DNA of 26,284 nt, taken from positions 1 to 26,284 of the IMG/VR virus record IMGVR_UViG_3300031232_000029. One strand, given 5' to 3'. Shown here one piece after another: positions 4,811 to 22,473 of the stretch. The notes beneath the pieces were generated by a model. It ran no database searches. It was not told where the DNA came from and saw only the letters and a program-made list of their open reading frames with translations. The translations under genes and the position numbers were made by a program. Within the stretch, counting starts at the first letter, position 1. Every line of letters starts with the position of its first letter. Source of the stretch: a virus.

Positions 4811-6103
4811 TTACGAAGTTGCGAACACGCCATTTTCAGCAGGGGCATAACACACCGGCTGAGCATAATAACGGCAACGAATCTCAATCTGATCAAGGCC
4901 TGGGCGACGAAGGGCACTAAGACCATCCGTAGTCACAATCTCAGGAAGACCCAGATGCTTAATACGCCAACTATCCATAGTAAGAAGATAGCCACGATCC
5001 TCAGGACAGTCGCTATCCGCGTACACGGGAATGATACCGCTAGAGATAGCAATACCAAAAGTCATGAATCCATACTTAGCGTCACCACCCGCACCGTCAT
5101 ACTCCACCTTAGCATTAAGTCGCTTACTAATTTTAGTAAACTGACGAGGACTAACAATAGCAATATCAGGAGACGCACCTCGCTCATGCATAACTTCACC
5201 AAGTGCCAAAATGCTATCTTCTGCCGGAGAAGTGGGATCATTAAGACGATGGCCAGCAAGGCGAGTCGGGAACACACTCCTATCAACACCCCAAAAGCTA
5301 TCGCCAGCCGTTGGCTCAATAAGAGGAATCCAGGCAGCTAAGCCACGAACCTTCTGAATAGCGGTAGTAGCAAAAGCACTATTATAATCGCCCACTGGAG
5401 CAATAAAGTCAGTATTAGCAAGAGAAGTGTAATACGTAGAAATATTGGAAACAGCCGCACCATTAGAGTCAATAGCACACGTAAGTGTCCCTGAATCTTC
5501 ACTAATCTTAGTAACCACAACTCGGAAGCTGGCAGCAAGCACACGGGGCGAACCAGTAGGAACGCCACCGGAGTTAGGGATAAAGTCGAGTTGCATGCCT
5601 AAGTTAAAGAACTTAGTATCAGCTCGCTGCAGTAACGTAATAACATTACCAGTAATAGTCCATGCGCCGTCACCGCGAGCAGTTGTACCACTGCCGTCAC
5701 GATACAGTCCGTGAGCCAGTGAATTGCCCAGCTGACGTAACAAACCATCAACCTCGAATTTGCGAGCATTGACAAAACTACCACGGTCATTAGCGGCCTT
5801 ACGAATCGTAAGTTCATTAATGTACGTAGCAGCATAGTCGGAGCTAAGCGAGACTAAGAACTTTTTAGACTGGGTAGGCGCCACAGGACCATTAGTACCG
5901 AGCAGAGCCGCAATATCCGCACTACGACCAGCAGGATTATCATACACGACCGGGATAACCATGTGATCGCCATAAGCATCACCATCCTTCTGCATCTTGC
6001 TTAAAAGGACGTGCTTACGCATCATAATCTGAGCAGGAAGACCGTCAGGATAAAGCTCCTTGAGTAGTGCATTCCACTGAACATCGCCTAAAACAGTCGG
6101 CAT
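4811..6103 (-). CDS. Major capsid protein (HK97-fold type)
   Basis: A protein of about 430 residues sits between scaffold and decoration-like genes. I prefer ATG 6103 because AGGTGG lies 5 bases upstream of it. A GTG at 6112, inside that same AGGTGG, would add three residues. Features fitting an HK97-like capsid protein are the N-terminal helical stretch (QWNALLKELYPDGLPAQ), a basic lysine-bearing loop (QSKKFLVSLSSDYAATYINE) and a long mid-domain. A C-terminal part follows with the typical S-P-R-Q-F-T-K-I (PDIAIVSPRQFTKISKRLNA), a P-V-Y-A-D-S-D-C-P-E turn, and an R-C-R-Y-Y-A-Q ending strand. Size, order and the scaffold immediately upstream support the call. There is no separate protease gene. 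Confidence 0.85.
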   Translation of the reverse strand: MPTVLGDVQWNALLKELYPDGLPAQIMMRKHVLLSKMQKDGDAYGDHMVIPVVYDNPAGRSADIAALLGTNGPVAPTQSKKFLVSLSSDYAATYINELTIRKAANDRGSFVNARKFEVDGLLRQLGNSLAHGLYRDGSGTTARGDGAWTITGNVITLLQRADTKFFNLGMQLDFIPNSGGVPTGSPRVLAASFRVVVTKISEDSGTLTCAIDSNGAAVSNISTYYTSLANTDFIAPVGDYNSAFATTAIQKVRGLAAWIPLIEPTAGDSFWGVDRSVFPTRLAGHRLNDPTSPAEDSILALGEVMHERGASPDIAIVSPRQFTKISKRLNAKVEYDGAGGDAKYGFMTFGIAISSGIIPVYADSDCPEDRGYLLTMDSWRIKHLGLPEIVTTDGLSALRRPGLDQIEIRCRYYAQPVCYAPAENGVFATS

Positions 6104-6202
6104 ACATGCCACCTATAATCGCAGCACAAGAGGGAGCTTATTAGGCCCAATTTCTTGCCTGGCCACTTTAGTGTGTGGTCACATAAATCATTAAAACCTA
6201 AA

Positions 6203-7204
6203 CTAGCGAAAGGCAACAGCAGCAGCTCGTGCGATACGCTCAGCTTCGGTCATAGCAGGCTTAGTAGGAGCACCTCCAGCATTAAGCCCACGAGTACTTG
6301 TAGTATTACCATTACCATCTGCCTTGGTAGTAGGGGCCTCAGTCTTTTTAGTAGCGCCAGCGCGCTTTGCATCTCGAACAGCCATCCTGCGAGCTACCTC
6401 TATCTCAAGAGTCCTAGCAATATTAGCAGGAGATAAGTCAGCCGCTTGACCCGTCTTTTGAGCAGCTAAACCAATGTTATTGGCTGTTGCCATAAGACTC
6501 TTCATATAGTTGTCATGGTCAACTTTGCCATCTGCAGCAATAAACCAACTCTCACTCTCAGGATATGAACCTTCAGTAAAAGTTCGTGCAGCAGCGCTCA
6601 GTGCATTAGCAAAAGCCTCAATGTTGCGCTCAACAGCAGCAACCTGTGCCCTTGCCTCTGCTTCTTTCTGTGCTGCCTCGCGTGTCTCATTATCACGCTG
6701 TGTCTTAGCTTCAAATAATTTAAATCTTAAATCAGGTGGTGCCTTTTCAGGTGCCAAATCATACAGCAATGATTGACCTATTAAGATTTGCATCTCAGGA
6801 GTAATTTTACGACTCTTAATATAGCCAATAGGATCATCCTCAAATGCCTTGCTACTCTTAATCTTAGTAAGTTCATCTCGAAGTTGTTTAGCCTCAGCAG
6901 CTGCGGCTGTATTAGCTTGTGCTTCCTTATTCTTAGTAGCACGGGCCTCTCTATCTTCACGTAGAATATCTGCTAAGTTCCTATTGGCTGTATTTTCTCG
7001 TGCTGCCTCTTTATTGTCAACAGGTTTTTCATTTGACGACGGAGACACGGTTGATTCTGATTTAGTTTCGGCCTTAGCCTGACCATTTAACTGTTCACTG
7101 TCGTCTCCATTATGACCATTAACATCGGGTGGAGGAGGAGCGAATCCCCAGCCACCAACGCCAAAACCAAGAGACTCAGGAGTAAGTGGAGTATTATCGG
7201 GCAT
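6203..7204 (-). CDS. Capsid scaffolding protein
   Basis: A 333-residue, low-complexity, charged protein starts at ATG 7204 with AAGGA 7 bases upstream. Residues about 25-75 are Asp/Glu/Ser/Asn-rich and probably disordered. Residues about 80-110 and 160-205 are Ala/Glu/Lys/Arg-rich helices of coiled-coil type. The C-terminus is basic and Ala-rich (ERIARAAAVAFR), as in scaffold proteins that contact the capsid protein. The position between portal and major capsid genes is the classical one. A weak hairpin lies in the 100-base gap before the capsid gene (GGCCAC at 6160 with GTGGTC near 6175). The sequence itself is not diagnostic, but composition plus position is. Confidence 0.78.
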   Translation of the reverse strand: MPDNTPLTPESLGFGVGGWGFAPPPPDVNGHNGDDSEQLNGQAKAETKSESTVSPSSNEKPVDNKEAARENTANRNLADILREDREARATKNKEAQANTAAAAEAKQLRDELTKIKSSKAFEDDPIGYIKSRKITPEMQILIGQSLLYDLAPEKAPPDLRFKLFEAKTQRDNETREAAQKEAEARAQVAAVERNIEAFANALSAAARTFTEGSYPESESWFIAADGKVDHDNYMKSLMATANNIGLAAQKTGQAADLSPANIARTLEIEVARRMAVRDAKRAGATKKTEAPTTKADGNGNTTSTRGLNAGGAPTKPAMTEAERIARAAAVAFR

Positions 7205-7207
7205 GTA

Positions 7208-9082
7208 TTATCCTTGTAGTGGAACACCTGCAGCAGGCCCACTGGCCATACTACTAGGTGGTGGTGTGGGTGGAGGTTGATTGGCAGCAGCTTCAGCAAG
7301 TTGAACTTGGTCTAGTGCTTCTAAAAATCGACCCATGTTATCAATAATAGTCTGTGGTGCATCTTGAGTAATGGCTATAGCTCTACCCTGTTTAATAACT
7401 CTATTAAGTGCTACAAGATCAACCTTCTCATCGATTGCAAGATGTTCTCCCTTGCGCATCTTCTTAAGAGCCCAACGAGCATACGTCTCACCAGCATTAC
7501 CAAGGTCATCAGACTCCTTTAAATCAGGGTGAGCCACTAACGCCCTACCTTCTTCAGGTCTAATCCAGCCAGTCTGTGCTAGCTCTAATGCTGACTGAAT
7601 ACGTGCCGCAGGTGACATGGAATCAAGGCTACTAGCATCAGCCTTAATTACATATGCATCCTTCTCGAGATCAGGCCACTTAACCGTGTACATACGTTTG
7701 CGATCAGCCCACGATATACTTGGTCTTTCTTTGTGATTTTCAACATAGTGTTTATACATTGCAATGATTTTAGTAGACGCATCAACTGCAATTGAGTGCT
7801 CCCATCGCTGACTGACCGGAGCAAACTTCTGAGCTTCCTTATAATTCCATTCACGCTGAGCTGGTGCACTTTCAATACCCGCAGGGAGTGTTGCAGTACC
7901 ACTAGCAGCGCTCATACCCTCATCTTCATAACAGCCGCGCTCTAAAGCATCAAGCCACTTATATGTATCAGATGGAACAGGATTTTGAACTTGAAATGTT
8001 GGTGGCTTACGTGCACTAATAACTGTACCAATCTCGTTAGATAGTTGCATGGTAGGAGGGCCGCCTTGAGGATCAACCCATGCGCGAGGAGTACCATACA
8101 GGTCCTGGACTCTTTGAATCCATCGATACATATATGTGATGCGCTGCTGTCTACCATATTGACGATAACAAACACCATCACCATAAAATCCGGTAATAGG
8201 TAAGCACCACCATAACCACGAATAAGGCTGAAAATCGTATGGCCATGCACTATCATCAAGCACTACACTACCAGTAGTAAGTACACGTCTAGGTTCGTCA
8301 ACACCACATGGATCAACATAAATAGCTTCAATAAGAACTATCTTACCTGGTGGTACAGGCCTATTAGTCCAGGTAGTAGAGCCAGACCGTTGCTGTAACC
8401 TAGACCTAAGAAGTCTTTCCTTAGCAGAGTTACCACTAGCATACTTTTTAATAACTGCATCCAATCGAACTAACATACGATGATAAGTAGACGCAGGATA
8501 TAAATGCTCGCGCACCTCATCCTCATCAACTATCAGATCGTCAATAAGTACGCGCTCAGTCTTAATACAAAAACTAGTGCCCGTGCCATATGGCACATAT
8601 TTCCAGCCTCCAGTACCAAATATGGTGGAATCTAAAAACGAGCGAGGTGCAATCTGATATATACCAGATAACTCATATGCGCCTAGCATGAATGAGTCCA
8701 TATCCTCTGCCTGAGTCTGAATATCAAAATCAGCGCCAGTAGTAACAAACGTAGCCTTGGGCCTAGACTTCACAATAAGCGAGGTTGCAGTCTCACACAC
8801 ACCTCGTGCCACATTTTTCGTAACCTCAAATGGACTACGTGTATTAATACCCGAAGTACTACCCCAATTAAGGCCGACAGGAGTATAACCACTAAAAATA
8901 CGAGCATGGCGACGATTACCTTCATATATTGACTGTTGCCGCCTCTCTATATCTTGTACCGTTTGTAATATGCATACTGCTAACCTCTCCTGTGGTGCGT
9001 CCTCTTGCTCATAAGTATACCATGGCATGTCGTCAGGACTGATAGCTGGGCCGACATAGTTGGTTGATATAATGTCAGACAC
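7208..9082 (-). CDS. Portal protein (podovirus-like)
   Basis: About 625 residues. The favoured start is GTG 9082, preceded by GAGGAG and overlapping the TGA of the small gene upstream. ATG 9094 and TTG 9100 are in-frame alternatives without an obvious ribosome-binding site. It forms the dodecameric ring at the packaging vertex. Supporting features are an N-terminal region with R-R-Q-Q-S-I-Y and G-N-R-R, and a long middle with the segment GFYGDGVCYRQYGRQQR at about residues 298-314. That segment is followed by an amphipathic helix, and such G-x-G-x-x-x...Q-x-x-x-N/Y helices are typical of portal clips and stems. A proline-rich tail (PPPTPPPSS) closes it. Order terminase, small gene, portal, scaffold, capsid agrees. 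Confidence 0.85.
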   Translation of the reverse strand: MSDIISTNYVGPAISPDDMPWYTYEQEDAPQERLAVCILQTVQDIERRQQSIYEGNRRHARIFSGYTPVGLNWGSTSGINTRSPFEVTKNVARGVCETATSLIVKSRPKATFVTTGADFDIQTQAEDMDSFMLGAYELSGIYQIAPRSFLDSTIFGTGGWKYVPYGTGTSFCIKTERVLIDDLIVDEDEVREHLYPASTYHRMLVRLDAVIKKYASGNSAKERLLRSRLQQRSGSTTWTNRPVPPGKIVLIEAIYVDPCGVDEPRRVLTTGSVVLDDSAWPYDFQPYSWLWWCLPITGFYGDGVCYRQYGRQQRITYMYRWIQRVQDLYGTPRAWVDPQGGPPTMQLSNEIGTVISARKPPTFQVQNPVPSDTYKWLDALERGCYEDEGMSAASGTATLPAGIESAPAQREWNYKEAQKFAPVSQRWEHSIAVDASTKIIAMYKHYVENHKERPSISWADRKRMYTVKWPDLEKDAYVIKADASSLDSMSPAARIQSALELAQTGWIRPEEGRALVAHPDLKESDDLGNAGETYARWALKKMRKGEHLAIDEKVDLVALNRVIKQGRAIAITQDAPQTIIDNMGRFLEALDQVQLAEAAANQPPPTPPPSSMASGPAAGVPLQG

Positions 9083-9302
9083 TATGCTCCTCATTCTCAA
9101 ATAACTTATTACTGTCTAAATTAGGGGATTTCCATCCGCCTGCAGTAGGTACTTCTCCCATAGTAGGAGCAACAGTATCTGGTGCCATGACCACAGATAG
9201 TTCAAATGCTTCATGACTATCATCAAATCCCTTCATAGCAGCAGACATGCATCCGGCATCACGTATAACTTTAAGGTACTCAGCTAAAGCGGCTGATGTC
9301 AT
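9075..9302 (-). CDS. Small unknown protein between terminase and portal
   Basis: A 75-residue protein starts at ATG 9302, overlapping the end of the terminase gene by 23 bases, and ends inside the portal start. The N-terminal third is a probable helix (AALAEYLKVIRDAGCMSAAM). The rest is polar and Pro/Gly-rich and probably unstructured. No family is recognised. The overlaps on both sides argue for a translated, coupled gene of the packaging cluster, for example a small terminase- or portal-associated accessory protein, but nothing in the sequence fixes a role. Confidence 0.65.
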   Translation of the reverse strand: MTSAALAEYLKVIRDAGCMSAAMKGFDDSHEAFELSVVMAPDTVAPTMGEVPTAGGWKSPNLDSNKLFENEEHSV

Positions 9303-10911
9303 GTATATCCTTCCACCACTCTTGGTCTAATCTACTATCATCCTTGGACCTACGGGCCTGTAGTTCTAGTTCAGCTAGTTCCCTAGTTTGCTCTAATCTA
9401 TACCACTCAATACTACCAACTTTAATTTTGTCTTCTTCTGGTTTAGCTTGTCGATGTCTACACCAACGATAGGCATAAAGACCAGCATCACATAAGTCGT
9501 TAGGAGTTTCTGGGTCTTCCTTACGCTTATCAGTACCAATAGTTTTAAGTAACCATCTATTATTAAGAAGCTCATCTGATAGTTCAGAGTTCTTAAGGAT
9601 GTGAATGACCTCATTATCAAGATCATTGTTAAATAATTCTATATGGTCTACTTTCTCGCGCTTCTCAGCGGGCTCTATGTATATATTATGCTCGACTGCC
9701 AGAGTTTCAATTACCATAGTTGCGAGCCCCGCCGGATCGCCAACTAGGCCAGCAAAGGGTCCATATATCGCATCTACCTCTTTAAACCACCTAGCAATAG
9801 CTGAGACTGATAATCGTAAGTCATCGGTGGTTTGTCGCTTTTCACTATATATTTCCCATAGCCCCGGAAACGTAGGACTCCAGGCCCATATCACAAAAGC
9901 AGTTCCATCTTTGGTACCAAAGTCAAATCCAATGGCAGTATTCCATTTAGTATCTTTAGGGCATGGAATTCCCCAATGCAAATCTACTGGTTGCTTAATA
10001 TAGTCATGTATATGTGGTTTGTATCTATACACCAGGCGCATATTGGTAGCAACCCAGTGACCAAGATACTCACGACGCCAGGTTGGGTGGTCATCTTTCC
10101 AGCCCTTCTCTTTCTTCTTACGTAGGGCCTCTTCCCATAGTGTGAACTTACGACCAGTACGAGGATTAATAAATTCAATATCATTGTCCTCTAATGTCCA
10201 TAAATGGAAAGACCATATAGCGGTATGTTCATCTGGACCTGTATTAGCTGGCCAGTTAGACCATCGTAATCCGTCACCAAGGTCTATTAATACTGGTGGC
10301 TGACACGTTGCTAGATAGAACTCACCTCTAAGCACGTCGCCAGGAGTACCAATTATAATAGTAGGACCTGACTGACCTAACAAAGCCGGTGCAAGAATAT
10401 CATCAATAAGCGTCTTAAACGTAAGCTCTGGAAAGCTCTTACATTCATCAATAATAGCTCCATGATATCGACCGCCGCGAATCTTCTCAAGCTCATCAAA
10501 TTTATCAATACCTTGAAAGTATATAATAGACCCATTTGGTAATGTCGCAGTAAGTTCAGTGTGCTGAAACTTTATACCTAAATCAAATGCCTCAGATAGT
10601 TTTTGAAGGTCGGCCCAGTAGACTTTCTTAATAGAGATGCGCGTCAATCCGATAATTATCCAAGAACTGTAGGCTCTCTGTAGACAGCGAATTAGGGCGA
10701 TAACTAGAGCACCCGTAGACTTGCCTGTCTGTCGTGGCGAAATAACTGAAATTAAATTTGAGTCATCTGCCTCAAGTCGCCGCTGGTGAGGCCGCAGGAA
10801 GGTACGCAACGCACTAATCACGTCTACATGTGTCTTGGTTTTTTCTCGTTTATCCTGCTCATTCTTAATATTAGCCCATAAGGCATTCATTAAGTCAGTA
10901 CGCTTTTTCAT
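9280..10911 (-). CDS. terL: Terminase large subunit (packaging ATPase-nuclease)
   Basis: 543 residues, starting at ATG 10911; an in-frame TAG lies six codons upstream. It is the motor and endonuclease of DNA packaging. ATPase domain: Walker A SPRQTGKST at 58-66, Walker B with catalytic glutamate IIDE at 153-156, and a coupling-type T-P-G motif at 189-191. RNase H-like nuclease domain: GFDFG at 328-332 with the first metal-binding Asp, GDPAG at 391-395, and NDLCDAGLYA at 471-480 with the last acidic residues. Length is normal and all key motifs are present. There is only a weak AGAGG about 12 bases from the start. The C-terminus overlaps the next gene. Confidence 0.95.
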   Translation of the reverse strand: MKKRTDLMNALWANIKNEQDKREKTKTHVDVISALRTFLRPHQRRLEADDSNLISVISPRQTGKSTGALVIALIRCLQRAYSSWIIIGLTRISIKKVYWADLQKLSEAFDLGIKFQHTELTATLPNGSIIYFQGIDKFDELEKIRGGRYHGAIIDECKSFPELTFKTLIDDILAPALLGQSGPTIIIGTPGDVLRGEFYLATCQPPVLIDLGDGLRWSNWPANTGPDEHTAIWSFHLWTLEDNDIEFINPRTGRKFTLWEEALRKKKEKGWKDDHPTWRREYLGHWVATNMRLVYRYKPHIHDYIKQPVDLHWGIPCPKDTKWNTAIGFDFGTKDGTAFVIWAWSPTFPGLWEIYSEKRQTTDDLRLSVSAIARWFKEVDAIYGPFAGLVGDPAGLATMVIETLAVEHNIYIEPAEKREKVDHIELFNNDLDNEVIHILKNSELSDELLNNRWLLKTIGTDKRKEDPETPNDLCDAGLYAYRWCRHRQAKPEEDKIKVGSIEWYRLEQTRELAELELQARRSKDDSRLDQEWWKDIHDISRFS

Positions 10912-11018
10912 AATATATACTGGCCTCTAAGACTCATCGATTGTATATTGACACATTTGGTCGATTGAATTAATCTGAGGCTCTGGCCGACGACAAAGGA
11001 AGTATAAGATTACTTTCA

Positions 11019-11447
11019 TTAGGCCGGTATCCATGTAAAGACGTACCATGACCTAGGTATAGCCACATGATGTCCAGTGTTAAATACAAGTAATAGTCCA
11101 TCCTTAGTTAAGTCAGCAGACTCAAGTCGACTATAACCTAACCTATCCGTATTTTCCCTCAATATATATCTACCATTATGATAGTACACACGACTAAACT
11201 CATTAGTACTATCAAGTGTAATAAGATAGCCGGGGCCACACGGAGCAGGTTTAATAAGTAAACTAAGCTCCTTTAATGGCTTGCCATCAAGTGTCGGAGC
11301 TCGTAACCCCTGTATGGGTTTAGCAATTTCCGGCGTCCCATTGCTGATGTCAGTGCTGCCGGGGTACTTGGTAAGCACTTGAGCTGCGTTAGTAATCGCT
11401 TTGATAGTCCCTGGGACCGTAGCTTTCCCTGTCGTATTTGGCACCAA
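11019..11447 (-). CDS. Unknown protein overlapping the acetyltransferase gene
   Basis: A 142-codon frame ends at 11019. The longest start is TTG 11447 (or GTG 11444), which overlaps the 3' end of the acetyltransferase gene by 175 bases in another frame. No ATG lies in the part downstream of the overlap, so either the long overlap is real, a non-standard start is used, or the frame is entered by ribosomal frameshift. The C-terminal part looks like a genuine folded protein (GPGYLITLDS, RVYYHNGRYIL, LVFNTGHHVAIPRSWYVFTW), resembling small phage proteins that end in a strand with a V-x-I-P motif. The N-terminal overlapping part is Thr/Pro-rich. No family is named. Terminase follows after a gap of about 107 bases. 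Confidence 0.6.
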   Translation of the reverse strand: MVPNTTGKATVPGTIKAITNAAQVLTKYPGSTDISNGTPEIAKPIQGLRAPTLDGKPLKELSLLIKPAPCGPGYLITLDSTNEFSRVYYHNGRYILRENTDRLGYSRLESADLTKDGLLLVFNTGHHVAIPRSWYVFTWIPA

Positions 11448-11695
11448 AATAACACTCTTTCCGGTATGCCTACAGCATAACCTATAATTTCATTGGGGTT
11501 GTCAGCCGTGGCTAACACTAAAACCTGTACTTCTTTATCACTAAATATACGTTTAATATATTCACGATGTGAGTTATACCATATATCAGATGGAAGCGAG
11601 CCTCTATCCTCTTTACGCATATCGCGTAACCAAGTAGACATTATATATGGTTCATCTGATGGAACATAATTACGTATGATAAATGGGTCATCCAT
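11273..11695 (-). CDS. GNAT-like N-acetyltransferase
   Basis: A 140-residue protein has its ATG 11695 overlapping the previous TAA (TAATG). It shows the GNAT order: an N-terminal strand IIRNYVPSDEPYIMSTW, a P-S-D-I-W-Y helix with H-R-E-Y-I-K, then strands VQVLVLATAD and IIGYAVG. V-L-F-W follows, and the acetyl-CoA pyrophosphate loop R-S-Q-G-L-S lies at 93-98 before helix KRLLTQL. The C-terminal L-L-N-P-Y resembles the end of a phage-encoded GNAT-like group found beside terminase genes. The substrate is unknown. The reading frame remains protein-like to its stop, which argues against a simple frameshift mutation despite the 175-base overlap with the next gene. Confidence 0.72.
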   Translation of the reverse strand: MDDPFIIRNYVPSDEPYIMSTWLRDMRKEDRGSLPSDIWYNSHREYIKRIFSDKEVQVLVLATADNPNEIIGYAVGIPERVLFWCQIRQGKLRSQGLSKRLLTQLKCLPSTPAALTSAMGRRKLLNPYRGYELRHLMASH

Positions 11696-12150
11696 TAGCG
11701 CACCTTACTCTCTAGGAGCGGCTTACTAGTTTGTGCCTCCCACTCATCCCACTTCAATCTAAGTGATGCACGATAAGCGGGTGTAAGAGACGTCACCCAA
11801 TCGATAAATAACTCAGCGCGCTCAGCAAATGACATCTGCTCGACTGCCTGAACACCATCAGTCTGAATCTTACGCGCACTTTCAAGCATTTTAGATGCCG
11901 CATTAGATATGGCAAGCATACGAGATTCAAGCTGCATCTCCGTCTTAGGATCGTTACTATCCTTAAGTAATTTCTTAATAGTCTTTAAGCGCGCGCGCAG
12001 TGCACTTACAATCTCACCACCAGTTGCAGCAAGACTAGGTCTGTCTTCCTCATCTTCACCTACAACCACTAAATGCTTGCGTATTGGATTACAAAGACTA
12101 CAACCTGTGTCGGCTGATATTGGAACTCGGCAAGCTCGGCAAGCCAGCAT
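11695..12150 (-). CDS. Zinc-ribbon helical protein, candidate small terminase
   Basis: A 151-residue protein starts at ATG 12150, overlapping the stop of the upstream gene. It begins with two CxxC pairs (C4-x2-C7 and C17-x2-C20), a probable zinc ribbon. A long helical part follows (ALRARLKTIKKLLKD, ESRMLAISNAASKMLESARK) and a C-terminal helix (YRASLRLKWDEWEAQ). Two genes separate it from the large terminase, where a small terminase subunit would be expected. Small terminases are mostly helical, but a zinc ribbon at the N-terminus is not usual. I see no definite family match, so the terminase role is only a contextual suggestion. Confidence 0.6.
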   Translation of the reverse strand: MLACRACRVPISADTGCSLCNPIRKHLVVVGEDEEDRPSLAATGGEIVSALRARLKTIKKLLKDSNDPKTEMQLESRMLAISNAASKMLESARKIQTDGVQAVEQMSFAERAELFIDWVTSLTPAYRASLRLKWDEWEAQTSKPLLESKVR

Positions 12151-12320
12151 TAGTAACCACTCTTAACCTTACGTCCTGCCATATCACGACTCTTATGCTT
12201 AGAGGCTCGTTGTTCACTATATGCTATAGCCACGGCTTGCTTAAGTGGTTTTCCATTGGAGCGCTCAATAGCAATATTCGCGCTCAATGCTTTCTTACTT
12301 TTACCTTGAATTAGTGGCAT
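12150..12320 (-). CDS. Small conserved phage protein of the MPLI-GKS type
   Basis: A 56-residue basic protein with ATG 12320 directly after the previous TAG and an AAAGGG site upstream. It begins MPLIQGKSKKALSANI and continues with G-K-P-L-K-Q-A-V-A-I-A-Y. This is the hallmark of a small, very common phage protein family of unknown function (MPLI-x-GKS ... GKPxxQAxAIAY). The stop overlaps the next ATG. Its C-terminus (DMAGRKVKSGY) nearly repeats the C-terminus of the neighbour encoded at 12321-12479. It is shorter than usual ORF cut-offs but is one of the safest family assignments here. Confidence 0.85.
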   Translation of the reverse strand: MPLIQGKSKKALSANIAIERSNGKPLKQAVAIAYSEQRASKHKSRDMAGRKVKSGY

Positions 12321-12479
12321 CTAATATCCCTTTCCAGGTTTGTATTTACGTCCAGCAATGTCTTTCATACCTATTACTGTGTCTTTGGGTTCTACCATCG
12401 GCATAGTAGGCGGCTTAGATAGCCTCTTATTAAGAACTTTCTGAGACGGAGTTATCTGAATCTTCTTAATGAAACTCAT
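12321..12479 (-). CDS. Small basic protein, first gene of the leftward structural operon
   Basis: A 52-residue protein. The start is ATG 12479 because GGAGAG lies 7 bases upstream; the frame is open further upstream, but that part looks like untranslated leader. The protein is basic and proline-containing (SFIKKIQITPSQKVLNKRL) and ends KDIAGRKYKPGKGY, sharing a D-[IM]-A-G-R-K-x-K tail with the following gene product. No known family. It is the promoter-proximal gene of the minus-strand packaging and structural cluster. Confidence 0.65.
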   Translation of the reverse strand: MSFIKKIQITPSQKVLNKRLSKPPTMPMVEPKDTVIGMKDIAGRKYKPGKGY

Positions 12480-12780
12480 TTCGTTTCTCTCCACTGATAA
12501 TGTGTTAGTACATATAAGACTGTGGTGCAAGGCATCGCCTCTGTGTAATGGCTGTATAGAGCTAAATAGAGATGAAAGACCTTGCTTTCGATTCCCAGAG
12601 CCAGTGCTACCGCTGTGCAATAAGTGACATTCGATTACCATCTCATGTCATCTAGTAATATAAAGGTGTAATTAGCATGAGACTATGCGTGCTTTGCTCA
12701 CCTAAGTGTGCTTGCCTGGGGCTTACTGTAGCTACAAGTGCCGCCCGCAGCGTCGCTATAAGGCTCAGAAACTAATTACG

Positions 12781-12841
12781 AATTGAGTGTAGCAATTAAA
12801 TAGTCGGCTCGTCAAGTACCAAGGGGGTCGAGAGCTCAATT
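12781..12841. promoter_or_regulatory. Nested inverted repeat in the leftward leader
   Basis: AATTGAG at 12781-12787 pairs with CTCAATT at 12835-12841. Inside it CTCG (about 12808) pairs with CGAG (about 12829). The two stems could form a two-tier hairpin in a transcript running leftward towards the structural operon. There is no U-tract, so it is not a standard terminator. A role as leader element, antiterminator site or protein-binding site is inference. Confidence 0.35.
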
Positions 12842-12915
12842 GACTACGTGATTCTGCAATGGCCTAGAGAATCGCTACTGAATTAAAAAGCCGTTTATAT
12901 ATGTTAACTAGACCA

Positions 12916-12944
12916 ATAATGATATAGTTGATGACACATATCAA
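12916..12944 (-). promoter_or_regulatory. Candidate leftward promoter for the structural operon
   Basis: On the minus strand TTGATA (12944-12939), a 17-base spacer and CATTAT (12921-12916) give a moderate sigma-70-like match. Transcription would start near 12909 and give a leader of about 430 bases before the first structural gene at 12479. The match is clearly weaker than the leaderless promoters nearby. A late promoter used by a phage factor elsewhere in this stretch is equally possible. Confidence 0.35.
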
Positions 12945-13129
12945 AATGTCGAAAAGGTTTTGAATATCGCGCACATAGGCAACACCGCGCCGCTGGGGTC
13001 CCCTTTGCATTAGGGGGAAGACAGGGGTGGTTATTATAGGCTTGCACATATAGTAACGGGTGTTACCATGGTGCAGCCCTGAGTGATACGACGACCACTG
13101 GGGATGCTTAGTACTGGGTACTCAGGTAC

Positions 13130-13336
13130 TCATGGGTACAGCCGCGCCGCAGTCTCCTTCAGTTCCATCTCTGACATACTTGGGTTCCACACCCACCCCA
13201 TCGTCACATACCATGCGACGCGGTCTCGGTGGGCAGCGCCTGCGTAGTGGATGAGCTCGAGCCGCCCGGCGCGGCGCATGTCGGCGATGATGGCGTCGAA
13301 GTACTCGGTCTGGCTCTTGGTCATCTGGTTCGTCAT
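13130..13336 (-). CDS. Small unknown leftward protein with leaderless start
   Basis: A 68-residue protein starts at ATG 13336 and is mostly helical (YFDAIIADMRRAGRLELIHY, SMSEMELKETAARL). No family is recognised. It lies alone downstream of its own promoter, whose -10 box ends exactly 6 bases before the ATG, so the mRNA should be leaderless. GAGGG immediately before the ATG is too close to act as a ribosome-binding site. The gene is visibly richer in G+C than the structural operon or the flanking intergenic DNA, as is its neighbour at 13400. This suggests separate acquisition. A regulatory or early host-takeover role would fit its position but is not shown. Confidence 0.65.
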   Translation of the reverse strand: MTNQMTKSQTEYFDAIIADMRRAGRLELIHYAGAAHRDRVAWYVTMGWVWNPSMSEMELKETAARLYP

Positions 13337-13342
13337 GCCCTC

Positions 13343-13371
13343 AACGTAATACGTCCCAGTCAGGATGTCAA
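13343..13371 (-). promoter_or_regulatory. Leaderless promoter of the 13336 gene
   Basis: Minus strand: TTGACA at 13371-13366, 17-base spacer, TACGTT at 13348-13343, then 6 bases and the ATG. The -35 box is preceded by TCACATTTTCAG, nearly the same as upstream of the second promoter (TCACATTTCAG). A dyad GATGTCA (13364-13370) / TGACATC (13381-13387) overlaps the -35 box and looks like an operator. Confidence 0.72.
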
Positions 13372-13399
13372 CTGAAAATGTGACATCGAGTGTGACATC

Positions 13400-13693
13400 C
13401 TACTGCCGACCGTCGATCTCCCGGTTGGACCAGTTCCCCATCAAAAATGCTTGCCATTGCCTGGCTAGCATATCCCGTGCCGTCTCAACTGAGTGGCCGA
13501 ACTTCAGGACCGCCAACCGCTGATAGGGCTGGTATCCCCCTCCTCCGTACCTCTCCTCCCACGAGCTTGCGGTGATGGGGTTCTCCTCCCCGAGGGCGAT
13601 GCGCCCTACAATGACTGTGACGTCGTCGCCGTGGCGTCCGGCGTCGTTGATGAGCTGGATAAGCTGCGAGTCTTTAATGGTTGTGTTGGACAT
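13400..13693 (-). CDS. Small unknown leftward protein with leaderless start
   Basis: A 97-residue protein starts at ATG 13693. It contains a hydrophobic strand after an N-terminal helix (DDVTVIVGRIAL), a glycine-rich loop (RYGGGGYQPYQ) and a helix with R-D-M-L-A-R-Q-W-Q-A-F. No family is recognised. The promoter sits so that transcription would begin at the ATG, and there is no Shine-Dalgarno. Base composition is GC-richer than the structural operon. It is the first leftward gene from the divergent control region, where phage regulators often lie, but no helix-turn-helix pattern is clear. Confidence 0.68.
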   Translation of the reverse strand: MSNTTIKDSQLIQLINDAGRHGDDVTVIVGRIALGEENPITASSWEERYGGGGYQPYQRLAVLKFGHSVETARDMLARQWQAFLMGNWSNREIDGRQ

Positions 13694-13699
13694 GTCATC

Positions 13700-13728
13700 A
13701 ATCTAAGGCATCACACCTCGCGTGTCAA
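13700..13728 (-). promoter_or_regulatory. Leaderless promoter of the 13693 gene
   Basis: Minus strand: TTGACA at 13728-13723, 17-base spacer, TAGATT at 13705-13700, 6 bases, then ATG. This is the same geometry as the promoter at 13343-13371. Directly upstream lies the dyad AATGTGA-TG-TCACATT (13733-13748), an operator-like palindrome with 7-base arms. Confidence 0.75.
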
Positions 13729-13748
13729 CTGAAATGTGATGTCACATT

Positions 13749-14037
13749 GGGTGATAGTGCAGTCCGTGCACGGGTAAGCCATGCGGCGTCTGAGCAGCTG
13801 GCTAGATGTCCCGGGCACTATGCGACACTCTGCGACACTAGTACTGAACAGATGTCCATAATACTATCATGCACCTGGATGGTGTGACGTCGCATGCGAC
13901 AGTTGAGTGGTGTCGCACTTCGATGCTCGCCTATCAGATATCAAGCACTTGTACCATAACTGGCGTGGCATACGCCTCGCATTAGTACTTGTCATGCCTA
14001 CCATTTAGTAGCCTCGGACGGTTATAATGTGCAGCGT
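13749..14037. promoter_or_regulatory. Divergent control region with TGCGACA half-site cluster
   Basis: Non-coding DNA between leftward and rightward transcription. The motif TGCGACA(C) occurs at 13821-13828 and 13831-13838. It occurs again as the palindrome CGTCGCATGCGACAG at 13888-13902, and as GTGTCGCA at 13910-13917. This makes five half-sites within about 100 bases. GATGTCC also appears twice (13805, 13851). A TATAAT box lies at 14023-14028. Such clusters are typical of repressor or initiator binding regions. No binding protein is identified in the window. Confidence 0.55.
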
Positions 14038-14175
14038 ATGTATGCACCAGCCAGGCGCGTTGAACTCCCCATCAAGTTAGCCACTGCTGAGCCGTGCGGC
14101 AAGGCACAATCTTTGCCCGCTGGTTCAGGCACTTACATCCACAAAGACCATTGGTCTACCACTCACGATGCTTGA
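14038..14175 (+). CDS. Possible small rightward ORF
   Basis: A 45-codon frame (MYAPARRVELPIKLATAEPC...) starts 9 bases after a perfect TATAAT at 14023-14028. There is no good -35 and no ribosome-binding site. A nearly leaderless transcript could read it. Its TGA lies inside the -35 box of the next promoter. No family is recognised, and it could be chance. Confidence 0.3.
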   Translation: MYAPARRVELPIKLATAEPCGKAQSLPAGSGTYIHKDHWSTTHDA

Positions 14176-14200
14176 CACCTCATCAGTCATACCTTATAGT
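14172..14200 (+). promoter_or_regulatory. Leaderless rightward promoter of the 14207 gene
   Basis: TTGACA at 14172-14177, a 17-base spacer, TATAGT at 14195-14200, then exactly 6 bases to ATG 14207. It repeats the geometry of the two leftward promoters at 13343-13371 and 13700-13728, but on the other strand. Confidence 0.78.
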
Positions 14201-14206
14201 AACATC

Positions 14207-14344
14207 ATGATGCAAGTCAGCCAGGTTAAGCCGGTGTGGTTCGAAGCCAATCAAAGTCTGCGAGACTTAGCTGTTGCTATCTGCGGTTACAAGAGCGACA
14301 GCCTCATCACGTGGCAAGGATTCACCCTTTGGAAAGTCAATTAA
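14207..14344 (+). CDS. Small unknown protein with leaderless start
   Basis: A 45-residue protein (MMQVSQVKPVWFEANQSLRD...) ends WQGFTLWKVN. The middle (SLRDLAVAICGYKSDSLITW) vaguely recalls a LysM-like S-L-x-x-L-A ... W pattern, but it is too short to call. The near-consensus promoter is placed 6 bases before ATG 14207, and no Shine-Dalgarno is present. It is the first well-supported rightward gene, so an immediate-early protein is a reasonable guess. Confidence 0.6.
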   Translation: MMQVSQVKPVWFEANQSLRDLAVAICGYKSDSLITWQGFTLWKVN

Positions 14345-14396
14345 TACCTTGTGAAGAGTCTCATCCTGTGTTAGGTTGAGATTCTGCGGAGGTATT

Positions 14397-14648
14397 ATGA
14401 GAGATCGAATCAGCTATGTTGAACTTGTTAGCTCCCTTGGTAATGAATCTATGGCAGTCGAGGCGCTACATGCATGTCTTGATTTGGGCTTCGGCGACAC
14501 TCCGTTAGAGCTGTATCGATGGGCCATTGAACGCAGTGTTAGTCTCACACAGCCTCATCGACATAAGCAAGCCGCTCGTATACTGGCAGACCATATAGCT
14601 GAGCTAGCACTCACTGGTCATCATTGGGTTAGCTTACCAGGTGATTAA
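14397..14648 (+). CDS. Small helical protein of unknown function
   Basis: An 83-residue protein starts at ATG 14397, because GGAGG lies 4 bases upstream; an in-frame start at 14376 has no such site. The sequence is helical and rich in Ala, Leu and His (YVELVSSLGNESMAVEALHA, KQAARILADHIAELAL). No family is recognised. It follows the leaderless gene by about 50 bases and may be cotranscribed with it. Confidence 0.6.
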   Translation: MRDRISYVELVSSLGNESMAVEALHACLDLGFGDTPLELYRWAIERSVSLTQPHRHKQAARILADHIAELALTGHHWVSLPGD

Positions 14649-14760
14649 CTAGGGTTAGTGCTTAACAATCATACCGTGCTTGTGTCCCTCTTCTGAGTCC
14701 GCTTTTGACAAAGCTCAATTTAACGACAGATAAACCTCTGTCAAGGGGCAATCGATTGAT

Positions 14761-14865
14761 ATGTCAGCAGAATTCTTGATGCGATGTGCAGCTTCATGCA
14801 AATGGAGCATTTTCAATCGTGACGCGGCAATCTGGGTCGCTATCATGAGGGCAAATCAACATTAG
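14761..14865 (+). CDS. Possible 34-residue peptide
   Basis: The ATG at 14761 opens a 34-codon frame (MSAEFLMRCAASCKWSIFNR...) ending 15 bases before the start of the 27-codon peptide. AGGGG lies about 12 bases upstream, which is far. A GACAG...CTGTC hairpin lies before it (about 14725-14743). No family is recognised; weak support. Confidence 0.3.
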   Translation: MSAEFLMRCAASCKWSIFNRDAAIWVAIMRANQH

Positions 14866-14880
14866 GAAGGAGGAGATAAG

Positions 14881-14964
14881 ATGCTCAAGACTAGCAAAAA
14901 GAAGTTGACACTGAGGTCGGAAGTTACTAATATGAGTGTGAAGGAACTGAGCGGAGAGTCCTAG
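14881..14964 (+). CDS. 27-residue peptide resembling a RiPP leader without core
   Basis: ATG 14881 is preceded by the strongest Shine-Dalgarno of the window (AAGGAGG, 7 bases spacing), so translation is likely. The peptide contains KKKLTLRSEVTNMSVKEL and stops with SGES. The K-K-L-x-L-[KR]-x-E start followed by a hydrophobic helix resembles class I lanthipeptide leaders and the leader of the precursor at 15511 (KKLNLKNETLRNL). The VxGG and core expected next are missing; TAG comes instead, and tRNA-Leu begins 4 bases later. It may be a truncated precursor, a leader-only peptide or coincidence. A promoter for the tRNA lies inside this frame. Confidence 0.6.
   Translation: MLKTSKKKLTLRSEVTNMSVKELSGES
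14905..14933 (+). promoter_or_regulatory. Promoter of tRNA-Leu inside the 27-codon ORF
   Basis: TTGACA at 14905-14910, 17-base spacer, TAATAT at 14928-14933. Transcription would start near 14940, about 28 bases before the tRNA. Geometry matches the other strong promoters of the window. Confidence 0.55.
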
Positions 14965-14967
14965 TAA

Positions 14968-15049
14968 GTCCAATTGGCGAAATGGTATACGCGGCAGACT
15001 TAAAATCTGCTACCCAAAAGGTTTGAGGGTTCGAGTCCCTCATTGGACA
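14968..15049 (+). tRNA. tRNA-Leu (anticodon UAA)
   Basis: Full cloverleaf: acceptor GTCCAAT / ATTGGAC with discriminator A at 15049. The anticodon arm is GCAGA-CTTAAAA-TCTGC, with anticodon TAA. A long variable arm (ACC-CAAAA-GGT) makes it class II, and the T arm is GAGGG-TTCGAGT-CCCTC. No CCA is encoded. It reads TTA (and TTG); TTA is frequent in the leftward structural genes. Confidence 0.95.
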
Positions 15050-15104
15050 CTATAAGATTAATATAGCACTAAACCAATACTACAAAAAGAAAGAGCAAGA
15101 TTAT

Positions 15105-15506
15105 ATGGATGACATTACTTTTCCGACTGACACTGATTCGACCGTCTCTGGCTCCACGCAGCCTCTCATCACTAATGCCGGTGCTAAGGTGGAATTGCTG
15201 ATTAACCAGCCTATTCCTACCAGCTCGCGCGGGCGTAAGCGCAAGCCTCTGGACGAGACCTATCCATTCACTGACATGGTTGTCGGTGCAAGCTTCGTTG
15301 TTAGTGGTAAAAAGGAGGTTCAACAGGCGCGTAATGCTGCCCAGCAATGGGCAAAGGAGCATGAGACATGGAAGTTCATTACTCGTAACCTCTCAGGCCA
15401 CGCTAACCCGCATGGTGGCGTGTATCCAGCTGATACCATCGGCGTCTGGCGCGTTCCTCCTACGTCTACTGTCGTTCGCGATACCACCACTGACCATTCC
15501 TCGTAG
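15105..15506 (+). CDS. Phage protein of the DUF7303-like type
   Basis: A 133-residue protein starts at ATG 15105, with a purine stretch (AAAGAGCAAG) upstream. After a Ser/Thr-rich N-terminus comes a basic patch (SSRGRKRKPLD), then YPFTDMVVGASFVVSGKKEV and a helix QQARNAAQQWAKEH. W-K-F-I-T-R-N and a G-V-W-R-V strand follow. This order (YP..M.VG.SF.V ... helix ... F.TR ... WR) is seen in a widespread family of small phage proteins of unknown function, often annotated DUF7303. It ends 4 bases before the RiPP-like precursor, so the two should be translated from one message. It has no resemblance to a modification enzyme. Confidence 0.68.
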   Translation: MDDITFPTDTDSTVSGSTQPLITNAGAKVELLINQPIPTSSRGRKRKPLDETYPFTDMVVGASFVVSGKKEVQQARNAAQQWAKEHETWKFITRNLSGHANPHGGVYPADTIGVWRVPPTSTVVRDTTTDHSS

Positions 15507-15510
15507 ATTT

Positions 15511-15693
15511 ATGAAGCACACTCGTAAGAAGTTGAATCTCAAGAACGAAACACTGCGTAATCTTCGTCATGTTGACATTACTAGCGTCAATGGAGGCGCT
15601 CCAAAAGAAACCGACGAGGGCGCTAGCTGCGGGACGTGCACAATGACATGTCCAACCAATACCTGTACAACTTATCAGTCATACGAGTGTTAG
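15511..15693 (+). CDS. Lanthipeptide-like RiPP precursor peptide
   Basis: A 60-residue peptide from ATG 15511. The frame is open further upstream, but MKHTRKK is where the precursor-like sequence begins. The leader RKKLNLKNETLRNL...ITSVNGG has the K-L-x-L-x-x-E-T-L-R-x-L ... V-x-G-G signature of class I lanthipeptide and related precursors, with the double glycine at 28-29 as the likely cleavage site. The core holds five Cys (40, 43, 47, 52, 60) and ten Ser/Thr, arranged as repeated S-C or T-C pairs (ASCGTCTMTC, then PTNTCTTYQSYEC). There is no good Shine-Dalgarno; translation probably couples to the gene ending 4 bases before. No LanB/LanC, radical SAM, YcaO or transporter gene is in the window, so maturation would rely on host or distant phage enzymes. 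Function inferred. Confidence 0.8.
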   Translation: MKHTRKKLNLKNETLRNLRHVDITSVNGGAPKETDEGASCGTCTMTCPTNTCTTYQSYEC

Positions 15694-15787: not shown

Positions 15788-16219
15788 ATGGCAAAAGATT
15801 ATGACGGTTCTGAGCTCACTATTAAGATGATGTTCGAGCGCGCGGTTAGGGGGCTGAAGTCGCAAGACTTCAACCCCTCATTGAAGCAGGGGGCCTGCGT
15901 ATACAAGTCGGAAGATGGAAAACACTGTTCATGGGGGTGGGTTGACATGTACATCCCCGATTATGCCGAGGGCGGAACGGTGACCGTCCTGTACGAAAAT
16001 AAAATAGGTATCGCTGCGACACTTACCGCGGATGAGCTAGAATTTGCAAAAGATCTGCAGGAAGCACATGACCGAGGTGCCTTCGGGAGTCCGGGCCGGC
16101 GGCGAGGCGCCCCACCGCCCTCGGCGATTATTATTGATAGCCTGAAAGTCGTCATGGTTAAGTATGGCCTCCTAAATGCATGCAAGGCTCTTTTCGACGA
16201 CGGAGAAAGCAACCAATGA
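15788..16219 (+). CDS. Unknown phage protein with CxY...GxxC motif
   Basis: A 143-residue protein starts at ATG 15788 with GGAGG 4 bases upstream. The N-terminal half contains QGACVYKSEDGKHCSWGW, a C-x-Y-x(4)-D-G-x-x-C-x-x-G motif found in many phage proteins of unknown function. Two helices follow (LTADELEFAKDLQEAHDRG and LKVVMVKYGLLNACKALFDD) around a basic-proline loop (GRRRGAPPP). The motif has a loose likeness to the M-C-C-L-G-F element of the paralogue pair at 18544-19259. Its stop overlaps the start of the beta-helix gene (ATGA). Confidence 0.65.
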   Translation: MAKDYDGSELTIKMMFERAVRGLKSQDFNPSLKQGACVYKSEDGKHCSWGWVDMYIPDYAEGGTVTVLYENKIGIAATLTADELEFAKDLQEAHDRGAFGSPGRRRGAPPPSAIIIDSLKVVMVKYGLLNACKALFDDGESNQ

Positions 16220-18432: not shown

Positions 18433-18507
18433 CCTCAACTAGCTCATGATGGATAGAGCAATCGCCTTATAAGCGGTAGGTACTGAGTTCGACTCTCAGG
18501 TTGAGGA
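18433..18507 (+). tRNA. tRNA-Ile (anticodon UAU)
   Basis: Acceptor CCTCAAC / GTTGAGG with discriminator A. The D arm is GCTC-ATGATGGATA-GAGC, the anticodon arm ATCGC-CTTATAA-GCGGT (one T-G pair) with anticodon TAT, and the T arm CTGAG-TTCGACT-CTCAG. No CCA is encoded. It reads ATA directly, unlike the usual bacterial CAU/lysidine tRNA. Confidence 0.93.
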
Positions 18508-18509
18508 CT

Positions 18510-18543: not shown

Positions 18544-18900
18544 ATGAGTCTTACTAAGCTTGTAATCGACCGGTCTAAATGGGGAGCTGGAGGCCTACTT
18601 AATGACGACGGGCGTATGTGTTGTCTAGGATTTGCTAGCAAGGCTTGTGGAGCTTCCGAAGATGAGATAGGAGGCCTTGCATTCCCTCCGCATAGTTTTG
18701 TTGGCAAATATAATATGCCACCATGGATGTGTTGTAATGAGAAATGCACGGACACCCGCTGCCGACCGGCCGCCGTGCTCGGGCATGCCGCCGCCGCAGG
18801 AATCAACGACAGCAGTATTCCTGAGTCAGAAAAAGAAGAAAGGCTTGCGAAGCTGTTTGCAGCAAATGGTATCGAGCTGTCTTTCATTGGAGTCAAGTAA
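18544..18900 (+). CDS. MCCLGF-family phage protein, copy 1
   Basis: A 118-residue protein from ATG 18544 with AAAGGA upstream. It belongs to a common phage family of unknown function marked by an L-V-I-D-R-S-K-W start, a G-R-M-C-C-L-G-F-A-S-K-A-C-G motif, an I-N-D-S turn and an ending E-E-R-L-A-K-L-F-A-A-N-G-I-E-L-S-F. The cysteines (M-C-C, A-C-G, W-M-C-C, K-C, R-C) could bind metal. A second copy follows, with TAATG overlap. Bases 18748-18800 are strongly GC-rich compared with the rest of the gene and encode the variable part (CTDTRCRPAAVLGHAAAAG). Confidence 0.75.
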   Translation: MSLTKLVIDRSKWGAGGLLNDDGRMCCLGFASKACGASEDEIGGLAFPPHSFVGKYNMPPWMCCNEKCTDTRCRPAAVLGHAAAAGINDSSIPESEKEERLAKLFAANGIELSFIGVK

Positions 18901-19259
18901 TGCTTATTACCAAGCTTGTTATTGATAGGTCTATGTGGGGAGCTGGCTCGTTGCTGCGGCCCGGTGACGGAAAAATGTGTTGTCTAGGATTTGCTAGCAA
19001 GGCTTGTGGCGCTACTGATGACGAGATTAAGGGGCTGGACTTTCCACCTCCATATTTTATTGATAAATATGGGCTTCCAAAGTGGATGTGCCTTTCACCG
19101 AAGTTCGAGCATCTGTGCGTCGACGAGGGCCTCGCGCCGGCGCTGCGCGCGACTAGTATTAACGATACTGTACATATTAGTGATTCTGAAAGGGAGTCTG
19201 AATTAATAAAATTATTCAATTATAATGGCATTGAATTATCTTTTATTGGAGTCAAGTAG
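18900..19259 (+). CDS. MCCLGF-family phage protein, copy 2 (tandem paralogue)
   Basis: A 119-residue protein whose ATG 18900 overlaps the stop of copy 1. It shares L-V-I-D-R-S-x-W-G-A-G, the K-M-C-C-L-G-F-A-S-K-A-C-G motif, I-N-D-T and the ending N-G-I-E-L-S-F-I-G-V-K with copy 1. Bases 18975-19009 are identical to 18616-18650 (35 bases), so the pair arose by tandem duplication or is kept similar by recombination. Between these shared parts the copies differ, and copy 2 has its own GC-rich patch at about 19113-19152 in the equivalent place. The stop overlaps the next GTG (TAGTG). Function unknown. Confidence 0.75.
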   Translation: MLITKLVIDRSMWGAGSLLRPGDGKMCCLGFASKACGATDDEIKGLDFPPPYFIDKYGLPKWMCLSPKFEHLCVDEGLAPALRATSINDTVHISDSERESELIKLFNYNGIELSFIGVK

Positions 19260-21642: not shown

Positions 21643-22473
21643 ATGTGGGCAAGAGCAAGCGCATTAACTAGACACTTGAACTGTGCGGCCGCGTCATGGT
21701 TACCCCGAGATGAACGTCAGGAATGGGTTCCAGGATATCTTGAGAATCCCAATGGCGCAATGGTTCCAGATTCGGATATGTATCCTAATCAGGGTGATAG
21801 TGTCTTTGCTGAGTGGGGTACGCAAATGCACCTAGCAAAAGAGAACTCACCGTTCGCAAGTGACCCATGGTTAGGTTATGTTAATCCCGAGCGCTCGAGG
21901 TTGTGGCCAAGCCTTCTAGGAAGGCATGAGATACCATACGCATACAATTGTAGAACTGGAAGGGTTTTACAGGGGCCGAGTGACGGGGCGGATAGCTGGA
22001 AGGGTAGGCAGGGACCTGATTACATTACGGGTACAACTGATTGGGTTGGTAATGTACCCTCTGGTAAAGACAAGGCGGGCGATTATTGGATTGATGACCT
22101 AAAGACCGGTCACGCCACCCCTGATCCCCTTAGTGACCAGTTTAAGTTTTACGCACTGTGCGCGTTGCGTTGGGCCAACCAAGAGGGATTAATAGATTTA
22201 AACCCCAGGCGCACGTGCAGGACTAGCGCCACCCACTGGCCGCGCAGCGCAGATAAGCCCACCAGATACTGGTCACAAATCACTTGGGCTGAATTAGAAG
22301 AATTCGAGGATGAGATTAAGCGCGCGTGGCGCAACGCGCTTAGAGGTCCAGAAGCTGTGCCTGGTACACACTGCCTATACTGTTCTAGTATGGATGTGTG
22401 TGAAGCAATCAACGGAGTTAGAAAAGTTCAGCTGAAGAAAGCTCGTGTAGCATCGGAGGATGACAATGAATAA
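21643..22473 (+). CDS. Cas4-like PD-(D/E)XK exonuclease with Fe-S cysteines
   Basis: 276 residues from ATG 21643; AAGGAG is only 2 bases upstream, unusually close. It carries the Cas4/RecB-type set: an early cysteine C14, G59-x3-H63, D133 (GTTDWV), the D-x-K core in WIDDLKTG (D152, K154), Q166-x3-Y170 (QFKFY), and C244-x2-C247-x5-C253. The four cysteines are those expected to hold a 4Fe-4S cluster. Such nucleases resect DNA ends. With the ERF protein and SSB nearby, a phage recombination module is likely. No CRISPR array or Cas1/Cas2 is present, so an adaptation role is not suggested. Confidence 0.83.
   Translation: MWARASALTRHLNCAAASWLPRDERQEWVPGYLENPNGAMVPDSDMYPNQGDSVFAEWGTQMHLAKENSPFASDPWLGYVNPERSRLWPSLLGRHEIPYAYNCRTGRVLQGPSDGADSWKGRQGPDYITGTTDWVGNVPSGKDKAGDYWIDDLKTGHATPDPLSDQFKFYALCALRWANQEGLIDLNPRRTCRTSATHWPRSADKPTRYWSQITWAELEEFEDEIKRAWRNALRGPEAVPGTHCLYCSSMDVCEAINGVRKVQLKKARVASEDDNE

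Follow-up and report, generated by a model that had tools for sequence, protein, structure and literature searches.

Sublancin of prophage SP-beta is an S-linked glycopeptide, and the genes for its modification and export lie alongside the gene of the peptide itself. In Bacteroidetes, class I lanthipeptide precursors with a leader of the form LxLxKx5L...GG and C39 processing have been described (Walker et al. 2020, PMC7268733). The prochlorosins of marine picocyanobacteria (ProcA/ProcM) consist of many precursors located at a distance from one tolerant enzyme acting in trans (PMC7268733, PMC10783134), and the prochlorosin paper makes no mention of phage. The anti-phage lanthipeptides of Streptomyces are host-encoded defences (PMC12360287), and an ocean study of ribosomally synthesized and post-translationally modified peptides (RiPPs) used co-expression to tie RiPP families to phage and named Acidobacteriota as RiPP-rich (PMC11118758). 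Our searches of the open literature turned up no account of orphan lanthipeptide precursors in phages; most subscription papers and bioRxiv were outside the scope of this search, and the absence is no proof. Here we analyze a 60-residue open reading frame (ORF) at 15511-15693, on the plus strand, of a viral fragment from a tailed phage (IMG/VR virus record IMGVR_UViG_3300031232_000029; its whole 26,284-base length is called the window). An earlier note on this DNA had proposed that the ORF encodes a lanthipeptide-like precursor without maturation genes. From the leader pattern and from a search with the peptide alone, we conclude that it is very probably a stand-alone precursor gene of class I (LanB type). 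Overall, we consider it likely that this is a lanthipeptide precursor gene of a tailed phage, the product of which is matured by a LanB and cyclase and a C39 transporter/protease of the host.

Comparison with known systems

The phage peptide shares with the Bacteroidetes LxLxKx5L precursors the leader layout, the Gly-Gly end, the link to C39, a core of Ser, Thr and Cys, and relatives located beside LanB and LanC. It differs from them in being phage-borne, in lacking any maturation gene, in carrying Asn in place of the Lys of the motif, and in having its nearest relatives in Acidobacteriota. As with the prochlorosins, the related precursors are, in some bacterial genomes, numerous and far from the modifying enzyme. 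On the other hand, the prochlorosins belong to class II, while the leader of the phage peptide is of the LanB type and the enzyme of its relatives is LanB; the prochlorosin combination of a Nif11-type leader with a LanM-type enzyme was not found. Like sublancin, it is a peptide specified by phage and modified, the modification here being predicted, but no modification or export genes adjoin it and its neighbours contain no such domains. Both the Streptomyces defences and the window gene tie lanthipeptides to phage infection, the latter from the phage side.

Leader and core

The product of the ORF is the leader MKHTRKKLNLKNETLRNLRHVDITSVNGG (15511..15597, plus strand) followed by the core APKETDEGASCGTCTMTCPTNTCTTYQSYEC (15598..15690, plus strand). 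The translation agrees with the earlier note on the 60 residues, the Gly-Gly at residues 28-29, the four Ser-Cys or Thr-Cys pairs and the final Cys. The leader, with the layout LxLxxETLRxL...VxGG, aligns with LanB-linked bacterial leaders, and cleavage is predicted after Gly29. It also contains the sequence L8-x-L10-x-N12-x5-L18 followed by Gly-Gly, that is, the LxLxKx5L motif with Asn12 standing in the alignment where the motif has Lys. The core, 31 residues long, has 5 Cys and 10 Ser/Thr, the kinds of residue needed for ring formation. The four dipeptides are at 39-40, 42-43, 46-47 and 51-52, and the last residue is Cys60. Adjacent Ser-Cys or Thr-Cys residues form no lanthionine ring with each other; the Ser/Thr partner sits a few residues off.

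LxLxxETLRxL-x7-VxGG is present at one place in the window and was absent from all 100 dinucleotide shuffles. Since this pattern had been derived from the very same peptide, a test free of circularity is given by the search in which the peptide was the sole query. When the peptide was compared with library models, nothing scored above cut-off, and there was no Nif11 match in Pfam.

Bacterial relatives and their LanB genes

For the search with the peptide alone we used 149 genomes from the class to which G002, an Acidobacteriota metagenome-assembled genome (MAG) titled Thermoanaerobaculum, belongs. The LanB N-domain is present in 20 of the 149. Eight genomes were matched at E<=0.01 (best E 2.8e-5 per genome, 52% identity), and 7 of these 8 contain the LanB N-domain (p about 2e-6). 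A family profile matched 11 of the 149 genomes at E<=1e-6, every one of them LanB-positive (p 1.2e-11), a test that is partly circular because some profile members came from matched genomes. G020, G021, G028 and G038 contributed no member to the profile, and in each of them the distance between precursor and LanB is no more than about 2 kb.

To reach relatives across the collections, the leader pattern was searched at the DNA level. The profile alignment (A1) was too diverse for a scan of a collection. In genomes, LxLxxETLRxL-x7-VxGG was found in 32 stretches, the majority of them small ORFs that carry the leader and usually a Cys-containing core. They lie chiefly in Acidobacteriota MAGs (titled Thermoanaerobaculum, Thermoanaerobaculia, gp7 and Holophagales), and the remainder in Planctomycetota, Actinomycetota and one Myxococcales MAG. 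A looser leader pattern added chance frames only, and another variant gave nothing. The gene order in L039 (G008:C240) is C39-peptidase ABC transporter, precursor, LanC, and LanB with N and C domains. A LanB with both domains also adjoins the precursors of L018 and L033, and further LanB-adjacent relatives are located at G004:C35, G008:C255, G020:C49, G021:C73, G028:C23 and G038:C44. The phage peptide is thus related in sequence to LanB-linked precursors, and the class I-type leader claimed in the earlier note is supported both by these gene neighbourhoods and by the association with LanB at the genome level.

In some genomes the precursors are scattered over many contigs: at E<=0.01 there are 50 in G002, 33 in G003 and 44 in G005, while the LanB matches, some of them partial, number 3, 1-2 and 3, respectively. 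Around the G002 precursors, LanB was absent from 20 sampled stretches of 9.6-19 kb each. Since the precursors of these three genomes are far from their few LanB genes, remote substrates appear to be normal for this leader family. The arrangement is a class I counterpart of that of the prochlorosins. In a Phycisphaerae MAG (L017), at least 7 precursors, mostly with ETVR leaders, stand in a row on an 8-kb stretch, and the genome has 1 LanB match. We also considered whether phages spread the host precursors; this was not supported, as the 20 G002 stretches contained no clear relative of a phage protein besides the precursors (one weak match, E 1e-5).

Orphan precursors in phage genomes

Comparison of the window genes with Pfam and PHROGs revealed no LanB/LanC, radical SAM, YcaO, protease or transporter, and the LanB and LanC models had no match in the window. 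The window precursor is therefore an orphan precursor and not a gene cluster. Scans of viral contigs revealed precursors in L004 (G012, 64.7 kb), L007 (G013, 53 kb), L068 (G156, 97 kb), L148 (30 kb) and L149 (76 kb); narrow patterns were used on IMG/VR, so these counts are a lower bound. The G012 precursor (12668-12877, record coordinates) is close to an endolysin gene, in a genome that also encodes a terminase, major head protein, DNA polymerase and integrase and that, judging by an exact 120-bp terminal repeat, is apparently complete. G013, with a terminase, tape measure and RecT, has its precursor at 1834-2040, and G156, with a portal and DnaB helicase, has two, at 22128-22334 and 64970-65212 (record coordinates in both). 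In L148 the leader pattern lies at 2801-2865 on the minus strand with a portal gene nearby, and in L149 at 86-150, also on the minus strand; both have an ETIR-type leader and a Cys-containing core. For L149, the 1.8 kb seen had no phage matches and the viral status comes from the IMG/VR classification. The phage cores contain 5-10 Cys with Ser/Thr, and 3 Cys in L148.

No LanB/LanC model match was found in the window record (G000), G012, G013 or G156, and 17 LanB proteins gave no significant tblastn match there, so that the nearby LanB and LanC of a class I cluster are missing from all four. The statement of the earlier note that the surrounding phage genes include no maturation enzymes thus holds within the window, and the same situation recurs in three further phage genomes. 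The four phages have almost no proteins in common, and therefore the precursor gene was probably acquired by phages more than once. When sister phages were sought with the terminase and the helicase, a single near-identical fragment was recovered, which ends before the precursor gene.

Phage context and host

The minus strand of the window carries the genes for a terminase and a major head protein, together with a match resembling a head-tail connector; Erf, an exonuclease, a DnaB-like helicase, a pyrophosphohydrolase-like protein and an RNA ligase are encoded on the plus strand. The gene preceding the precursor (15105..15506, plus strand, 133 aa) has a weak DUF7303 match below cut-off, and its stop is 4 nt before the precursor ATG. 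The following gene (15788..16219, plus strand) has a GGAGG ribosome-binding site and matches phage family phrog_17693. The precursor start has no Shine-Dalgarno sequence, and most of the window start sites that were checked likewise have no clear one. The GC content at third codon positions (GC3) of the precursor is 48%, similar to the adjacent phage genes, while its bacterial relatives have 64-72% GC; because of this phage-like value, the gene is not considered a recent host fragment.

A phage tRNA-Leu(taa) at 14968..15050 (plus strand), just upstream of the precursor region, gives a weak hint of the host. Among the genomes examined it is closest to G002 (86%, 76 bits), compared with a best value of 65 bits in a 149-genome sample from the phylum that includes the Phycisphaerae MAG G009. 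When 20 kb of the window was compared as DNA with 149 genomes to detect spacers or prophage, the matches were mainly to tRNA and low-complexity sequence. Another phage tRNA, tRNA-Ile with anticodon tat, is at 18433-18508 of the window. Two ORFs that adjoin each other, at 18544-18900 (118 aa) and 18900-19259 (119 aa), look like a tandem duplicate; they have TKLVIDRS.WGAG..L and MCCLGFASKACG in common and no Pfam match. A contig from another sample (L002) is 99.95% identical to the window over 9137 bases and covers 5960-15096. It ends there, 9 bases ahead of the first gene in the run of the precursor, and this end may reflect either a variable junction or a break in the assembly.

Proposed mechanism and alternative explanations

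During infection, the precursor would be translated within the phage gene run. A host LanB dehydratase and cyclase would recognise the leader and form (methyl)lanthionine rings in the Cys/Ser/Thr-rich core, and a C39-type transporter/protease of the host would then cut the leader after Gly-Gly. In such a division of labour the sequence would come from the phage and the chemistry from the host. We infer expression, modification in trans and export of the phage peptide, and the step of modification in trans by host enzymes is, in our estimate, probable. The most likely kind of use would be a peptide acting in or around the infected cell, for host takeover, for exclusion of rivals, or in competition with anti-phage host lanthipeptides.

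The leader could instead occupy the host LanB and block the maturation of host lanthipeptides, some of them anti-phage, so that the peptide is a decoy serving counter-defence. The well-kept leader, the lack of an encoded enzyme and the anti-phage host lanthipeptides known in Streptomyces (PMC12360287) fit this explanation. However, the leader alone would suffice for a decoy, and because the phage cores retain Cys and Ser/Thr, a modified product is favoured. We also know of no anti-phage role of Acidobacteriota lanthipeptides, and we regard the decoy as unlikely. It is improbable too that the gene is a host precursor captured by chance and useless to the phage, although capture would be easy where a bacterium has dozens of precursor genes and there are no close relatives to show conservation. 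The precursor is closely packed among phage genes and has phage-like GC3, and intact precursors, one or two each, are present in four phage genomes that have hardly any genes in common, which argues against a passenger.

Two further explanations question the precursor or its location. Weak ferredoxin-like Pfam matches suggested an unmodified small Cys-rich protein, such as a metal- or iron-sulphur-binding protein or a disulphide peptide, whose likeness to a precursor would be accidental. We rejected the ferredoxin assignment since these matches are below cut-off and confined to the Cys stretch; as the Cys-rich protein would also explain neither the match of the leader nor the link with LanB, we consider it very improbable. 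An assembly artefact, with bacterial DNA fused to a phage contig, is hardly credible. Support from the independent near-identical contig is confined to 5960-15096 and stops short of the ORF, but phage genes of matching composition flank the ORF on both sides, and the same type of orphan gene occurs in other phage genomes.

Several results nevertheless weigh against a host-matured phage lanthipeptide. The earlier note had suggested searching the peptide with RiPP precursor models and against phage and host genomes. LanB-linked relatives were found in Acidobacteriota, but the window had no match to NCBIfam NF038153 (lant_leader_L1a) at E<=10, so the peptide is not filed under that family, and direct searches of phages, plasmids, viral contigs and genomes gave no close homologue. 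By codon score the leader is phage-like, but the core is near zero, that is, neutral. The phage has 45% GC compared with 64-72% in the related bacteria. Also, maturation genes could sit outside the 26,284-base fragment.

Implications

If the peptide is indeed modified, one 180-base gene would let a phage steer the natural-product chemistry of its host, which would be a new kind of auxiliary gene and a phage-side counterpart of the anti-phage lanthipeptides that were discovered recently. Mining based on gene clusters misses orphan phage precursors because no enzyme gene is nearby; a leader with a Cys-rich core in a phage genome provides a simple search handle for such peptides. More generally, we put forward, with a confidence just short of even, that the phages of LanB-bearing bacteria repeatedly capture lone precursor genes and make phage-specified lanthipeptides through the host machinery during infection or lysogeny, so that these precursors may constitute a class of auxiliary genes.
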